From IMG/VR virus record IMGVR_UViG_3300032304_001158, positions 1 through 34,615 of that record: 34,615 nucleotides of DNA; one strand, written 5' to 3'. Position numbers and translations under genes: made by a program. The notes under the pieces are model-generated. The model was not told where the DNA came from and did no database searches. It saw only the letters and a list, made by a program, of their open reading frames with translations. Each line of letters opens with the position of its first letter. Within the stretch, counting starts at the first letter, position 1. Below, one piece after another: positions 290 to 12,365 of this stretch. Source of the stretch: a virus.

Positions 290-319
290 AGCCGTCTCGG
301 GAAACCGGGGCGGCTTTTT
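290..319 (+). terminator. Rho-independent terminator
   Basis: An 11-bp uninterrupted stem (290-300 with 305-315, G-T pairs included) closes on a GAAA tetraloop and is followed directly by a run of T at 315-319. It would end plus-strand transcription from the lysis/late region. It also separates that transcript from the convergent minus-strand operon at 379-1278. Confidence 0.9.
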
Positions 320-706: not shown

Positions 707-1081
707 TTAGAGAGTTTTGGGAGGTGTCGGAGCGGCGTTGTCCGCCAGTGCCTCTATTGCGCTATGCTGACGAAATAAGAGACGCCCTAGTTCGATGGCT
801 TTTGATTCCATCGCTTCCATGTGGATTCTTGCCAGCGGCGGGAGATCGAAGTCGCCGTCCTTCCAGTCGCGGTGCATCACAAAAAATGCGGCGTGGAGAT
901 ACTTGGCTGACTGCTTGACCTCCAGTAGTCGGTCCCGCTCTATCCGCATGAAAAACAAATCGGCCTGAGCTTGCGCACCCATCTCCACGGCGCACCTCCA
1001 CTTGTTTTGCCACGCCTGTTCATGGCACGCGCATCCCTCATAGTGAGTGGCGCCGGGATCGGTCGAGCATCGGTCACTCAT
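707..1081 (-). CDS. Hypothetical protein with N-terminal Cys/His cluster
   Basis: 124 aa. The N-terminus carries a Cys/His-rich segment (CSTDPGATHYEGCACHEQ) that could bind a metal. Short phage proteins with a similar CxCHE start are common, but I know of no assigned role. The rest is helical and charged, and no membrane segment is seen. Its ATG overlaps the stop of the gene at 1078-1278 by four bases (ATGA), which shows translational coupling in a minus-strand operon of three. Confidence 0.75.
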   Translation of the reverse strand: MSDRCSTDPGATHYEGCACHEQAWQNKWRCAVEMGAQAQADLFFMRIERDRLLEVKQSAKYLHAAFFVMHRDWKDGDFDLPPLARIHMEAMESKAIELGRLLFRQHSAIEALADNAAPTPPKTL

Positions 1082-1278
1082 GGCTTGGTAGAGTGGGCAG
1101 GGGTTGCAGTAAGAAGCTCGCCCACCAAGTCAAGGAAGGACGGCGCGGGGCAGGCTTCGATCATCGACAACGCAAGTTCACGCACGCGGGCGAAGATGTG
1201 CGCTCCGTCCGTCGATTCCATGGTTGCAGTCAGGGCGATGAGCTGGCGTAGCTCGGAGAGTTTTTGGGCGAGGTTCAT
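1078..1278 (-). CDS. Hypothetical protein (first gene of minus-strand operon)
   Basis: 66 aa, mostly helical (LAQKLSELRQLIAL at the N-terminus), no domain recognised. The ATG at 1278 is supported by its leader: the minus strand just upstream contains TTGACCGAC and ends in AAACAAACCA before the ATG. The same two features precede the plus-strand gene at 1958. No Shine-Dalgarno sequence is visible. It overlaps the next gene by four bases. It may be an early protein under the same control as the plus-strand early operons. Confidence 0.7.
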   Translation of the reverse strand: MNLAQKLSELRQLIALTATMESTDGAHIFARVRELALSMIEACPAPSFLDLVGELLTATPAHSTKP

Positions 1279-1311
1279 TGGTTTGTTTCGTTTGGTTCAG
1301 TCGGTCAATCA
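1279..1311 (-). promoter_or_regulatory. Minus-strand leader with TTGACCGAC motif
   Basis: Read on the minus strand, this holds TTGATTGACCGACTGAACC and then an A/C-rich tract ending directly at the ATG. TTGACCGAC recurs before the gene at 1958, and a close variant (TCAACCGAC) recurs before the gene at 12039. The shared sequence suggests a common 5' leader or promoter-proximal element. The -10 and -35 boxes themselves are not clear on this side. Confidence 0.5.
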
Positions 1312-1340
1312 AGTTCCGGTAAGGTGAAGCTGGGAGCCGG

Positions 1341-1371
1341 ACACGCTTCGGCCATTACAGCCGAAACGTGT
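1341..1371. other. Strong hairpin upstream of the minus-strand operon
   Basis: A 12-bp stem with one mismatch (1341-1352 with 1360-1371) has a 7-base loop, CATTACA. There is no T-run on either side, so it is not a normal terminator. It lies just upstream of the minus-strand operon's leader and could be an operator or part of a structured RNA. Confidence 0.6.
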
Positions 1372-1613
1372 CATTCTGGAAAGTTCCGTATATGGAGCCA
1401 GCCGAGAACCAAGACACCCCGTGATAGCGGGAACCAATACTAGCCTGGGGTTGCGGCGTGGCAGGCTTCAAGCGCATTGGTCGATCACACTTTTTAACCG
1501 CTCCTTCATTTCGGTCAGGGAGCAGACCCGTGAGAACTTCACCTAGATTGGGCTGGGCCGTTTAAGCGTTCCTCCCTTTCCTGATTATGTGAAGCCTTGA
1601 CCCGGTGAAAAGT
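1372..1613. other. Noncoding region with nested stems (possible structured RNA)
   Basis: No supportable gene. ACCAAT (1433-1438) can pair with ATTGGT (1476-1481), and inside it AGCCT (1442-1446) can pair with AGGCT (1463-1467). A T-run (TTTTT) follows at 1491-1495. A further small stem, GCTCC/GGAGC, follows near 1499-1522. The nested arrangement is consistent with a small RNA, but no known family is recognised. Confidence 0.4.
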
Positions 1614-1652
1614 AAAAGCCCCGCCGGGAGGTGAGAATACCGGCAGGGCTTT
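1614..1652. terminator. Long hairpin, possible terminator
   Basis: AAAGCCC and GCCGG on the left pair with CCGGC and GGGCTTT on the right, with one C/A mismatch between the two helices and a 12-base loop. The minus-strand exit is T-rich (GGGGCTTTTACTTTT), while the plus-strand exit has TTTCGAGTCTTTCG. It could work in either direction; which transcript it ends is not clear, because there is no gene for about 300 bases on either side. Confidence 0.55.
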
Positions 1653-1815
1653 CGAGTCTTTCGACCCGGGGGAGATCCTTGTCGCTGAGTCTCACCTCTC
1701 GACGCCGCAACCATTACCACGCCGCGCCGGGTTGGCAAGGGAAAAATTGCAGGCGGGTGAAATTGACCGATGGCAGACGTTCGCCTAACAGCTTGACCCG
1801 CACAAAAACCCTAAC
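1653..1815. other. Noncoding, nothing recognised
   Basis: An open frame runs through here (1631-1870), but it spans two hairpins, has a Ser/Arg-rich low-information composition and lacks the A/C-rich leader typical of genes in this genome. I treat the stretch as untranslated. Confidence 0.5.
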
Positions 1816-1863
1816 AGCCGGAAAAGTCTTTCCCTACTCCCACAAGGCTTTCCGGGCTTTTTT
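1816..1863 (+). terminator. Terminator before the first early operon
   Basis: AGCC plus GGAAA (1816-1824) pair with TTTCC plus GGCT (1850-1860, one bulged G), followed by six T at 1858-1863. It sits directly upstream of the promoter for the plus-strand early genes. It would insulate that promoter from any transcript coming through the noncoding region. Confidence 0.7.
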
Positions 1864-1877
1864 CGCCTAGCGTGTAA

Positions 1878-1957
1878 ACTTTTTGTAGACATCCGGGAAT
1901 AATTCGCTAAGGTGTCCTCAGTTGACCGACGAACGGCAACGCAACCGACCAAACCAA
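1878..1957 (+). promoter_or_regulatory. Early promoter/leader, copy A
   Basis: This region aligns with 11974-12038: ACTTTTT, then ATCCGG, then a TANNGTGT box, then ACCGAC, then an A/C-rich tract up to the ATG. From ATCCGG onward the two align without a gap for about 34 bases with about two thirds identity. TAAGGT at 1908-1913 may be the -10 box; TAGACA 16 bases upstream is a possible -35. Two intergenic copies this alike suggest shared early promoters or operators. Confidence 0.65.
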
Positions 1958-2137
1958 ATGACAACATCCACCATTCCATCCGGCTTTGAACAATCCGCTC
2001 CCGTCAATTTCGAGGGTGAAACCTACGTCGCACGCCGCGCAATCGGCTCCGATGATTTTTGGGTAGCTCTTGACGGCTCCGATTTTGACTCCCTGACGCA
2101 TCCTGTTGAGATCGAGGACAGCGAGTTTGTTTTTTAA
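1958..2137 (+). CDS. Hypothetical protein, first gene of early operon
   Basis: 59 aa, acidic at the C-terminus (EIEDSEFVF). The ATG at 1958 is preferred over an upstream TTG because it follows the leader ending in ACCAAACCAA that is shared with other genes here; there is no Shine-Dalgarno sequence. No domain is recognised. Its first residues (STIPSGFEQS) faintly resemble those of the gene at 12039, which has the same promoter type, but the match is too short to claim homology. Function unknown. Confidence 0.65.
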   Translation: MTTSTIPSGFEQSAPVNFEGETYVARRAIGSDDFWVALDGSDFDSLTHPVEIEDSEFVF

Positions 2138-2202
2138 CCTTCCCAACCCCTCCCTTGCCTTTCCCTGGTCGGTTTCCGGGGGAGGGCGAGGGAATCCCGA
2201 CC

Positions 2203-3814: not shown

Positions 3815-4470
3815 GCCGCGAAATCCACTGCATTCAAGGCTCGCCGGAATGGTATGCACTACGTCGCGGCATCCCGACAGCCAGCCAGTTCGGGCGCATC
3901 GTGACACCGGCCAAGGGCGAATACGCCAAGGGAAGCGAAACCTACGCCGCCGAGCTAATCGCCGAGGCTCTTGGCTGGCAATCCGGCTTTCAAGGCACGC
4001 CCGACACGGAACGCGGGAACTACCTCGAACGCGAGGCTGTCAACTGGCTAGCCTTTCGCCATGGCATCGAAGCACGCGAGTCTGGATTCTGGCTCGCCGA
4101 CTCAGGACGATACGGAGCCAGCCCGGACGGCATCACCACAGACGGCAGACCGCTAGAGGTTAAATGCCCGGCGCTGCATACGTTTATCAAGTGGCGCATC
4201 GCTGGCGGACTCCCAGAAGATCACAAGGCGCAGGTCCACGGTGAGATGATCCTAACAGGAGCCGACGAGGGGCTTTTTGTGGCCTATGCGGACTCCAAGC
4301 ACGTTGATAACATGCTCGTCATTGTCAAACGCGACGACTTCACTAGGCGGATGGAAGAGCATTTAGTGACCTTTTGCGACCGACTGGCGACACTCCAGCG
4401 CGAGCTACTAGGCGACGAGGCTGGGGTGATTTTCCCGTATTTGAACGTCCAAGGTGAGATACCGACATGA
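3811..4470 (+). CDS. YqaJ/lambda-type recombination exonuclease
   Basis: 219 aa. GASPDG at 102-107 and LEVKCP at 115-120 are the D...ExK active-site signature of lambda exonuclease/YqaJ proteins of the PD-(D/E)XK superfamily. The N-terminal SPEWYALRRGIPTAS is the usual start of the family. It would resect double-strand ends 5' to 3' and load the ERF protein encoded just upstream. The start overlaps the erf stop by four bases. Confident on family and on role in recombination. Confidence 0.93.
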   Translation: MSREIHCIQGSPEWYALRRGIPTASQFGRIVTPAKGEYAKGSETYAAELIAEALGWQSGFQGTPDTERGNYLEREAVNWLAFRHGIEARESGFWLADSGRYGASPDGITTDGRPLEVKCPALHTFIKWRIAGGLPEDHKAQVHGEMILTGADEGLFVAYADSKHVDNMLVIVKRDDFTRRMEEHLVTFCDRLATLQRELLGDEAGVIFPYLNVQGEIPT

Positions 4471-5575: not shown

Positions 5576-5754
5576 AAACAGACACACCTCGACCAAAACT
5601 AAAAAAGGTCCACCGCGAACGCGCAGGAGTTAAGGAAACCGACAACCTGTTCATGGATGGATCAAGCTGGCTTGAGTTCAAGCGCAAGTGTGACGAGTTC
5701 ATGGAGTCGCGAGGAATCCCAAAAGAAGTCACTCCTATTTTCATTCAGCAATGA
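5572..5754 (+). CDS. Small hypothetical protein
   Basis: 60 aa when started at the ATG at 5572, which overlaps the previous stop in the ATGA pattern; a TTG 12 bases earlier is less likely. The N-terminus is basic (TPRPKLKKVHRERAG) and the rest helical, ending in PKEVTPIFIQQ. No domain recognised. Coupled to the next gene by a 4-base overlap. Confidence 0.55.
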   Translation: MKTDTPRPKLKKVHRERAGVKETDNLFMDGSSWLEFKRKCDEFMESRGIPKEVTPIFIQQ

Positions 5755-9687: not shown

Positions 9688-9757
9688 GTAACGCCTAACC
9701 GTTACAGTAACGCACCGTAACAAAGCGTGACGACACGTAGACAGTGACGTAGACGCT
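9688..9757. repeat. Iteron-like repeats upstream of the initiator gene
   Basis: Three GTAACG/CGTTAC units occur within 9688-9712, including the palindrome CGTTAC-A-GTAACG, with a partial fourth (CGTAAC) just after. They are followed by two GTGACG units and two CGTAGAC units (9736-9742 and 9748-9754). The dense short repeats upstream of replication genes look like an origin or an operator. The CGTAGAC unit recurs in the opposite orientation inside the initiator gene. Confidence 0.6.
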
Positions 9758-9784
9758 TGCAATTCATTCAACTGTTTCATACAA

Positions 9785-10576
9785 ATGGACATGGCCTACA
9801 CGAAATTACACCAATCCCTTGTCACTTCAACGATCTGGCGCGAACCCCACCCGACAAGGATCGTCTGGATTACCATGATGGCGCTTGCAGACCAGCATGG
9901 CGAGGTAATGGCATCCGTTCCGGGATTGGCCGACGCCTCCAGAGTGTCGATTCGAGAGTGTGAAGCTGCCTTGGCTTCTTTTCTTGCTCCTGACCCTTAC
10001 AGTAGGACAAAGGACTTTGAAGGGCGGCGGATTGAGGAGATTGACGGCGGATGGTCTTTGCTGAACCACCCGAAATATCGGCGAATGGCTTCTAAGGACG
10101 AATCAAAGGAAAAGGCCAGCGCGAGGACTGCCCGCTATCGGGCAAGGTTGAAACAAAAAGCGTCGCTGTCTACGGTGTGTGACGGTGTGTCTACGCATGG
10201 AAGGGACATAGCAGAAGCAGAAGCAGAAGCAGAAGCAGAAAATAAAAATACCCCCTTACCCCCTAAAGGGGGAGGCAAGGCGAGGCGTCGGAAAAAGTCA
10301 GAGGGGCAATCGAGAGTCAAAGAGAATACCCCTCAAATGATCCGAATCGGCGCTTTGTTTGGAAGACAGCCCGAAACCTTATGGACTATTGCTGAAGCCG
10401 AATCGCTAGCAATCGCCAACCCCACCGACAAAGAAATCAGCGGAATGGAGTTTTACTATAACGCCACTATCCCGGAGGAAAAAGACCATAGACGAACAGC
10501 GTTGCAGACGCTTCTGAATAATTGGAACATTGACCTTGATCGCGCTCGCCAGCTTTACAAAGCCACCCACCCATGA
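9785..10576 (+). CDS. O-like replication initiator/helicase loader
   Basis: 263 aa. The N-terminal part (MAYTKLHQSLVTSTIW, then TRIVWITMMALADQHGEV and ADASRVSIRECEAALASFL) is a winged-helix domain typical of phage replication proteins that recognise origins. The middle is a low-complexity linker with an AE repeat and a basic stretch (KARRRKKS). The C-terminal 90 residues probably contact the helicase. A second in-frame ATG at 9791 is an equally good start. The DnaB-type helicase follows with a 4-base overlap, the O/P-like arrangement. Confidence 0.75.
   Translation: MDMAYTKLHQSLVTSTIWREPHPTRIVWITMMALADQHGEVMASVPGLADASRVSIRECEAALASFLAPDPYSRTKDFEGRRIEEIDGGWSLLNHPKYRRMASKDESKEKASARTARYRARLKQKASLSTVCDGVSTHGRDIAEAEAEAEAENKNTPLPPKGGGKARRRKKSEGQSRVKENTPQMIRIGALFGRQPETLWTIAEAESLAIANPTDKEISGMEFYYNATIPEEKDHRRTALQTLLNNWNIDLDRARQLYKATHP
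10168..10195. repeat. Paired GTCTACG/GGTGTGT repeats inside the initiator gene
   Basis: GTCTACG occurs at 10168-10174 and 10189-10195, and GGTGTGT at 10174-10180 and 10184-10190. The reverse complement of GTCTACG occurs twice upstream of the same gene. An A-rich tract and a C/G-rich hairpin follow within 80 bases. This is comparable to lambda, whose origin iterons lie inside gene O. Confidence 0.55.
10211..10240 (+). repeat. Five tandem GCAGAA hexamers
   Basis: Five perfect copies of GCAGAA in frame encode (Ala-Glu)5 in the linker of the initiator. They are followed by AAATAAAAATA and a stem CCCCCTT/AAGGGGG near 10251-10272. A hexamer tract can expand or contract by slippage without breaking the frame. 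Confidence 0.85.
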
Positions 10577-11958
10577 ACGACGACGTTTTACGAATCCCCC
10601 CGCACGCAGTCGGGCCGGAAAAGTCCATCCTTTCCACGATGCTGCAAGACCCTCAGGAGTGGATACCTGCCGCTCTTAACGCAAGCCTATCACCTGACCA
10701 CTTCTACCTCCCTGCGCACGCCCGCATTTTCGATCAAATCCTTGCCATGTTTGACGAGCGAGGACACTGCGAGCTTGTCGAGTTTGTTCAGCGTTTTCTC
10801 GACTTGGGTATGCTGGCAGACGTTGGCGGGCCATCGGCAATTACGGACATTTACACCTATGCCCCAACCGGAGGCCATTTCAGCCAGCATCTTCAAATCG
10901 TTAAGGACAAGTTCGTTTTACGGAGCATCCTCCAAGCTGCCAACGAGTCGATTCAAGGCGTGGATGAATTACCGGAAGACGTTCAAGGGCTACTGGACGC
11001 CACGGAGGCCAAGATCAGCAGCATCCGGGAGGCGTGCGAAGGCTCCAAGGTGTTTTCCATGCGGACAGTCGCGGAATCAGCAATGGAGGCAATCCAGCTA
11101 AAAATTGAAACCCGAGGCGCACCGCAAGGGCTTTTGACCGACTTCCACGATCTCGATTGGATGACGGGCGGACTTTTGCCGGGGCAAGTACTCGTAATTG
11201 CAGGACGCCCGGCAATGGGCAAAACGTCATTCCTGATGAACATCATCGAAAACGTCTCATTTCGCCGTGATGACCCGTCGCAGGTGTTTTCCCTCGAAAT
11301 GTCTGACACAGAGCTTGTGACCCGCGCAATTTACTCACGCGCGGGCATTGCGCTGAAAGACGAAAATGGCGAGTTTCATCCACCGGACAAAGGCGACTTG
11401 ATCCGGCTCAAAAACGCCTACCTTGAAATCGGCAAGTCGGTCCTGAGAATTGACGACTCTCAGGGCATGACGATCATGCAAATCCGCGCCAAGCTCCGCA
11501 GGGCTGTCAGGCGCAACGGTATCAAGCTGGCAGCGATTGACCACTTAGGGCTGATTCGTGCCACCGGAAACAATCGAGGCAATCGGGAGCGCGAAGTTGC
11601 GGAAATCAGCGCGGGAATCAAGAGCCTGGCGAAAGAGCTTGGAATCCCGGTCATTGTCCTTTGCCAACTCAACCGCGAGTCCGACAAGCGAGGGGGCGCA
11701 AGAGCAGGCGAGCCGAAACTGTCAGACCTGCGCGAATCAGGCGCGATTGAGCAAGACGCGGACTTCGTGGGCATGATGTATCGCCCGAGCTACTACGGGC
11801 TAACGTCCTACCCGGAAAGCTACGCGGAGATGATCCTGACGAAAAACCGGCACGGGGAAACGGGCATCATTCCGCTGGATTTCAGTCGCCAGTACACGAA
11901 GTTCCGGGAGGGTAAGCGGTTCATTCCAGCGGCACCGGGGACGACCGTGGATTGGTAG
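10573..11958 (+). CDS. dnaB: DnaB-type replicative helicase
   Basis: 461 aa, close to bacterial DnaB. The N-terminal helical domain is followed by the RecA-like motor with GRPAMGKTS (Walker A, 211-219), SLEMSDTEL, AAIDHLGLI (Walker B) and VIVLCQLNRE, plus LSDLRESGAIEQDAD, all standard DnaB motifs. It would form the hexamer that unwinds the phage fork, loaded by the product of the overlapping upstream gene. There is no fused primase domain. The phage seems to rely on host polymerase, since no polymerase gene is present. Confidence 0.95.
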   Translation: MNDDVLRIPPHAVGPEKSILSTMLQDPQEWIPAALNASLSPDHFYLPAHARIFDQILAMFDERGHCELVEFVQRFLDLGMLADVGGPSAITDIYTYAPTGGHFSQHLQIVKDKFVLRSILQAANESIQGVDELPEDVQGLLDATEAKISSIREACEGSKVFSMRTVAESAMEAIQLKIETRGAPQGLLTDFHDLDWMTGGLLPGQVLVIAGRPAMGKTSFLMNIIENVSFRRDDPSQVFSLEMSDTELVTRAIYSRAGIALKDENGEFHPPDKGDLIRLKNAYLEIGKSVLRIDDSQGMTIMQIRAKLRRAVRRNGIKLAAIDHLGLIRATGNNRGNREREVAEISAGIKSLAKELGIPVIVLCQLNRESDKRGGARAGEPKLSDLRESGAIEQDADFVGMMYRPSYYGLTSYPESYAEMILTKNRHGETGIIPLDFSRQYTKFREGKRFIPAAPGTTVDW

Positions 11959-11973
11959 CCTGAAAAATAATTC

Positions 11974-12038
11974 ACTTTTTCCTTCCCATCCGGCAAAAAG
12001 TGCCTATTGTGTGCCTTGTCAACCGACCAACCAAAAAA
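11974..12038 (+). promoter_or_regulatory. Early promoter/leader, copy B
   Basis: This is a near copy of 1878-1957. ACTTTTT, ATCCGG, a TATTGTGT box and ACCGAC occur in the same order, and the leader again ends with ACCAACCAAAAAA before the ATG. Copy B is 15 bases shorter because the tract between ACCGAC and the ATG is reduced. It would start a second early transcript downstream of dnaB. Confidence 0.65.
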
Positions 12039-12365
12039 ATGAACGTCAAAGCAACCACCCCTTCCGGCATCGAATTTTCCGGCCAACTCTCCGAAACAAT
12101 GATGGCAGTCGTCGCCAGCGGATCGACCGTCGAAGAAGCAAAATGGGAGTTTGTTTCATTCACACCTCACGAAATGAAGTGGGACGTTAAGTCTTACGAA
12201 AAGCGAGCGATCAAGGTTGGCCGCGAAACCATTGCAAACGTAGGGGCTTTCCGCATGGAGCAGAAGCTACAAAGCTATGAAGTTCTTAAACACCCGGACG
12301 GATCACTTTTTGTCATTGACGGTGACGAATGCGCCGCCGCCGAACGTGAAGCCGCCTACGCCTAA
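12039..12365 (+). CDS. Hypothetical protein
   Basis: 108 aa from the ATG at 12039; an upstream GTG in frame would place coding sequence over the promoter/leader. The protein alternates strands and helices (SGIEFSGQLSETMMAVV, YEVLKHPDGSLFVI) and ends in an acidic helix. It contains no motif I recognise. As first gene after the duplicated promoter it mirrors the position of the gene at 1958 and may be strongly expressed. Confidence 0.7.
   Translation: MNVKATTPSGIEFSGQLSETMMAVVASGSTVEEAKWEFVSFTPHEMKWDVKSYEKRAIKVGRETIANVGAFRMEQKLQSYEVLKHPDGSLFVIDGDECAAAEREAAYA

Follow-up and report, generated by a model that had tools for sequence, protein, structure and literature searches.

A long noncoding gap in a phage contig with P22-type capsid relatives probably combines the control DNA of a moron-like insert with ancestral terminator and promoter DNA

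The longest noncoding gap among the listed genes of this contig (1279-1957; by the ORF list, 679 bases flanked by a leftward ATG at 1278 and a rightward one at 1958) is probably composed of two control regions lying end to end: the control DNA of the leftward genes of a moron-like insert, and ancestral DNA that would carry a late terminator and an early promoter. Coordinates refer to the window, i.e., the whole stretch of 34,615 nucleotides that was analysed. As most of the gap lies within an insert that the nearest known relatives lack, its signals most likely regulate and terminate the transcription of extra genes, and are not those of a vital RNA or a packaging site.

The source is an IMG/VR virus record that begins and ends with the same 123 bases, which allows the contig to be treated as a circle of about 34.5 kb. 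The relatives of its capsid protein are P22-type (phrog_283), the best named match being an Acinetobacter phage (46% identity); an Sf6-type small terminase, an ERF annealing protein, a YqaJ exonuclease and a DnaB helicase are also present. Nearly all genes point rightward, together with three small leftward genes at 379-1278. No tRNA or tmRNA was found by ARAGORN. Shine-Dalgarno-like sites lie upstream of 7 of the 52 listed starts (9% at any ATG), and ACCA lies within 12 bases upstream of 8 of them (2.9% at any ATG), three of the 52 positions (2357, 12395 and 21702) not being at a start codon. Recurring leaders, such as ACCGACCAAACCAAATG, were observed in front of phage genes. In addition, positions 171-195 (GGTTCGACTCCTTCAAGGCGCACCA) resemble the CCA-bearing 3' end of a tRNA, such as occurs in phage attachment sites; ARAGORN found no tRNA there, and the exact sequence was absent from genome_contigs. 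This stretch sits within 61-285, only the first part of which is common to the related contig L069.

The gap is noncoding. All 12 ORFs of at least 20 codons within 1279-1957 scored below zero in codon log-odds (-0.015 to -0.302 per codon), compared with +0.097 to +0.353 for the 26 phage genes of the training set, which were scored on themselves, and +0.068 to +0.199 for the three leftward genes, which stood outside that set. Moreover, at E<=0.1, Pfam returned nothing for seven of the gap ORFs and NCBIfam nothing for four, and coding within 1279-1957 was rejected on these two grounds. The claim of the preliminary description that a long stretch holds no supportable gene is thus borne out. Its further argument, that a phage seldom carries so much unused DNA, finds an answer other than the one envisaged there: most of the gap belongs to an extra block that is missing in all five relatives in which the junction can be read.

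A relative of the phosphoesterase at the end of the late operon is encoded at eight viral loci. Two of these (L073 and L074) end inside the phosphoesterase gene and in a third (L072, with a protein identity of 71%) the similarity does not go past it, leaving five readable junctions (L067-L071, phosphoesterase 92% identical at the protein level); no phosphoesterase relatives were found in genome_contigs. In all five, the end of the phosphoesterase gene is followed by a terminator, T1, and then by the equivalent of window 1822-1965, while 320-1800 is missing. The spacing between T1 and the onset of similarity at 1822 is about 25 bases in the relatives, and identity from 1822 on is 72-73%; an alignment takes the similarity leftward to about 1800, so the right border of the insert (320-1800) falls uncertainly within 1799-1822. 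Since L070 and L071 do not differ across the junction, they are not independent, and the five contigs represent at most four independent cases. Elsewhere in all eight related records, only chance-sized DNA matches to 320-1800 were found.

The insert amounts to about 1.5 kb and contains the three leftward orphan genes together with approximately 520 bp of DNA upstream of them. No homologue of its noncoding part was found in phages, plasmids or 23 related viral records; the best insert match in those searches, one gene (379-702) in the contig L033 aside, reached E 0.008 over 22 bases. The G + C content is 57.5% in the genes of the insert and 55.3% in its noncoding part, close to the 55% of the phage, and its composition therefore carries no sign of a foreign origin. 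The distribution of the block suggests a gain in the window phage; alternatively, the block could have been lost in the relatives.

The sequences that border the insert are conserved. T1 (290-319, plus strand), an apparent intrinsic terminator of the late (structural) operon and the left border of the insert, has an 11-pair stem with a T tail, folds with z -3.59 (30-100 shuffles) and is 93-100% identical in the five relatives. T2 (1816-1868, plus strand) would be the second late terminator. The terminator described earlier at 1816-1863 folds weakly (z -0.57) and was not listed by the terminator scan, but its U-tract and surroundings are conserved in the five relatives. The consensus structure predicted over T2 and the promoter gained nothing from covariation (+1.78 kcal/mol), so the conservation of T2 is one of sequence and does not demonstrate conserved pairing. 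A 27-base match of this stretch to Burkholderia phage KS10 (E 0.06) was taken as chance. As T1 and T2 are adjacent in the relatives, they appear to be tandem terminators of the late operon, between which about 1.5 kb lies here.

To the right of T2, the pair TAGACA-16-TAAGGT (1886-1913, plus strand) is the predicted early rightward promoter; a similarly spaced pair is in place in the five relatives, where it is followed by a conserved CAGTTG and then by a leader ending ACCGAC..ATG. The corresponding leader of the window (1914-1957, plus strand), recognised by comparison with the relatives, ends in ACCGACCAAACCAA before the ATG at 1958, and in phages related through ERF the first early gene also has such a leader in front of it. 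Thus, the right part of the gap, from about 1800 to 1957, would be ancestral and would consist of the second of two tandem late-operon terminators followed by the early promoter and its leader.

Several observations were made around this promoter. In the relatives (L067, about 5640-5690, and likewise L068-L071), the promoter holds operator-like GTAAA/TTTAC half-sites, arranged as TGTAAA..TTTACA..TGTAAAC; a degenerate version of them survives in the window at about 1873-1891. In two of the ERF-related phages, a small leftward ORF lies beside the same early promoter (L002, about 3940-4132, minus strand, and the same place in L003), and by eye it resembles a helix-turn-helix repressor. The first early gene after the promoter and leader is variable (window 1958-2137, L004 8199-8455, L005 7960-8205, L008 1953-2111), its products being judged unrelated by reading, while both flanks are alike (the leader on one side and the block at window 2138-2200 on the other), as in an exchangeable slot for accessory genes. 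Downstream, an intercistronic stem at 2138-2203 (CCCTTGCC / GGCGAGGG) is conserved in L004, L005, L008 and L070; across the five sequences, 1 of its 18 predicted pairs differs at both positions and several differ at one position. Because the junction that holds the insert also borders this variable slot, the site looks like one at which phages of this kind exchange small accessory genes.

The three leftward genes (379-702, 707-1081 and 1078-1278, minus strand) have positive codon scores and no match in PHROGs, Pfam, NCBIfam or PADLOC. A single homologue was found for the gene at 379-702, in an otherwise dissimilar 65-kb contig (84% identity over 73 residues, 76% over 90), which fits an exchange between phages. 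No relative was found for the proteins of 710-1081 and 1081-1278. Those of 382-702 and 710-1081 had no tblastn match in phages and were not found encoded in the near relatives, the search of the near relatives having a positive control for one of the two proteins and none for the other. At the 3' end of the leftward genes, a short hairpin with TTTT (377-362, minus strand) is an unconvincing terminator candidate; 320-385 folds on the minus strand with z -0.36. Their putative leader (1279-1308, minus strand) resembles the rightward early leader, the arms 1278-1308 and 1922-1952 being 71% complementary.

Two hairpins stand out in the part of the gap that belongs to the insert. The hairpin at 1340-1372 has 12 Watson-Crick pairs, one mismatch and a loop of 7, and that at about 1614-1653 has 12 such pairs, one mismatch and a loop of 12. 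Under a rule of 12 pairs with at most one mismatch, with start positions that may be off by one base, these are the two longest inverted repeats of the 34.6-kb contig and the only ones to reach 12 pairs; when the region was shuffled 200 times, a repeat of at least 12 pairs arose twice. For both hairpins, the minus-strand RNA folds better than the plus-strand RNA (200 shuffles; z -4.63 against -2.37 for 1340-1372, and -3.76 against -1.71 for 1614-1653), because a C-A mismatch on the plus strand becomes a U-G pair on the minus strand in each of them. In a first folding scan with 30-100 shuffles, the hairpin at 1614-1653 scored -5.34 on slightly different ends. The 12-bp stem (1341-1371) and the long hairpin (1614-1652) that had been noticed previously are therefore genuine, with slightly adjusted borders. 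The exact repeat pattern of 1340-1372 with a free loop was absent from viral_contigs. In contrast, the ACCAAT/ATTGGT and AGCCT/AGGCT pairings formerly pointed out at 1433-1481 do not exceed chance level (z +0.43 on the plus strand and -1.47 on the minus strand, 200 shuffles).

The order of the elements along the minus strand suggests what the two hairpins may do. Read leftward, the hairpin 1653-1614 with its interrupted U tail is followed by a promoter-like site (1611-1584), the hairpin 1372-1340, the leader and the first gene. From this order, we infer that the terminator-like hairpin at 1614-1653 (minus strand) would stop or attenuate leftward RNA coming from the right, as an insulator or attenuator, and that the hairpin at 1340-1372 (minus strand), about 62-94 bases 5' of the first leftward start codon, would either form a hairpin in the 5'UTR or serve the leftward promoter as its operator. 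The promoter-like site (1584-1611, minus strand) is weak, agreeing at 9 of 12 positions, and about one such site is expected by chance per 3.2 kb. The G + C skew is positive on average over 1279-1674, the sign also seen in 1078-1278, one of the leftward genes, and turns negative beyond 1674, on the right; since it is about zero in 1373-1612 and in the genes 379-702 and 707-1081, it supports a leftward reading only weakly. Both the direction of transcription and the roles of the hairpins are inferred; the hairpins probably serve as leftward control elements. The stretch from about 1279 to 1800 would then be the upstream part of the block of about 1.5 kb, which together with its three leftward genes is moron-like and lies between both terminators.

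Alternatively, a small RNA may be encoded here. Such an RNA, of about 90-130 nt on the minus strand, would start near 1700-1740 and have the hairpin 1614-1653 as its terminator; host mRNAs would be bound through the C/U-rich loop (UCUCACCUCCC) of that hairpin or, in a variant, the complementary arms 1622-1636 and 1690-1704 would attenuate the leftward genes. The hairpin is strongly biased toward the minus strand, 1608-1706 folds on that strand with z -2.38, a promoter-like TTGCCA-17-AATGGT is present at 1738-1710 (minus strand), and the arms, which were found by repeat search and could compete with the hairpin (1622-1704), have a longest exact match of 9, which was equalled or exceeded in 31 of 2000 flank shuffles. 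However, the alternative fold through these arms is 17 kcal/mol worse, and no homologue was found, hence no covariation. Shine-Dalgarno sites precede only 7 of the 52 phage starts, so any anti-Shine-Dalgarno targets would have to be those of the host. The search with RNA family models that had been proposed as a check gave no match at the gathering score in the whole window, and a known Rfam family is thereby rejected; four sub-threshold matches (E 0.8-2.1), three of them at 1575-1715, were taken as chance. Among them, an alignment that spans the entire ar14 sRNA model, although weak (E 1.5), speaks for a small RNA, but its score, far below the gathering score, is at chance level. Overall, a small RNA of this kind is rather unlikely. 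A combined scheme, in which competition between the hairpin at 1614-1653 and the arms gates the three orphan genes and a released RNA of about 100 nt acts in trans through the C/U-rich loop, is more doubtful.

Another view of the same stretch is that 1373-1800 is a functionless leftover of the insertion event and that only the promoter, the leader and the terminators matter. Most 120-base windows of 1373-1800 fold no better than shuffles, no homologue was found and the stretch is missing in the relatives, all of which speaks for leftover DNA; on the other hand, the stretch includes an inverted repeat that, with one other, is the longest in the contig and has a U-rich tail, and this reading is held to be unlikely, if a little less so than the small RNA. 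A replication origin or a packaging (pac/cos) site would suit the longest gap among the listed genes and the maximum of the cumulative G + C skew at 1674. Nevertheless, this skew turn coincides with the turn in gene direction, the region contains no repeated binding sites except one 16-base pair of repeats, and it is missing in relatives that share the capsid and the terminase, though the terminase, found in full in two of them, is only approximately 51% identical to that of the window. The small terminase also argues against it, as Sf6-type small terminases go with headful packaging. A search for origin repeats in 9700-12100 found only one 13-base pair of repeats. As related phages lack the extra block, the packaging site envisaged in the preliminary description is unlikely, and an origin or packaging site of either kind is given very little credence. 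Its proposal of an anti-defence RNA fares worst: the position beside the early genes is all that favors it, whereas there is no Rfam match at the gathering score, no CRISPR-type repeat family in the region and no connection found to any defence system, and we regard it as extremely improbable. The reading of the gap as control DNA of an accessory insert joined to ancestral control DNA is therefore preferred.

This arrangement shows a route by which a compact phage can come to hold a long noncoding gap, namely by taking up an accessory block between tandem terminators, a position in which neither the late nor the early transcription is disturbed. For the two hairpins themselves, the payoff is modest.

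Deviating base composition is a usual but non-essential sign of a moron. In the window, the insert is absent at the same site in 5/5 readable contigs of related phages and, judging from ORF orientation, its three orphan genes run against the surrounding genes of both the late and the early operons; its base composition (57.5%/55.3% vs 55%) does not deviate. With a promoter and a terminator that are candidates only and a composition that does not deviate, the insert is termed moron-like at most, short of a moron. The pid locus of Salmonella phage P22 was classed as a moron on the grounds that related phages lack it or carry another insert in its place, and that it is divergently transcribed with its own terminator (PMC3573128). 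The window insert is like pid in its orientation against its neighbors (here from ORF orientation), in its small orphan gene(s) and in its location in the late region. It is unlike pid in comprising three genes and about 520 bp upstream of them between two late terminators, in having a candidate promoter and 3' terminator only, and in its unchanged base composition.

Among virulent phages, Pseudomonas phage PAK_P3 produces the small RNAs sRNA1 and sRNA2 from long gaps (PMC4933390). The window likewise holds structured sequence in an unusually long intergenic gap, but an RNA from it would be putative and the region is not conserved in relatives. The alphaproteobacterial sRNA ar14 (RF02344) offers a further parallel, in that 1715-1612 on the minus strand aligns over the full model and the terminator hairpin carries a C/U-rich loop; since the alignment scores 18.3 bits (E 1.5) where the gathering score is 58.8, membership of this family was rejected. 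Overall, the region is of an ordinary type, and the chance that it encodes a small RNA is modest.
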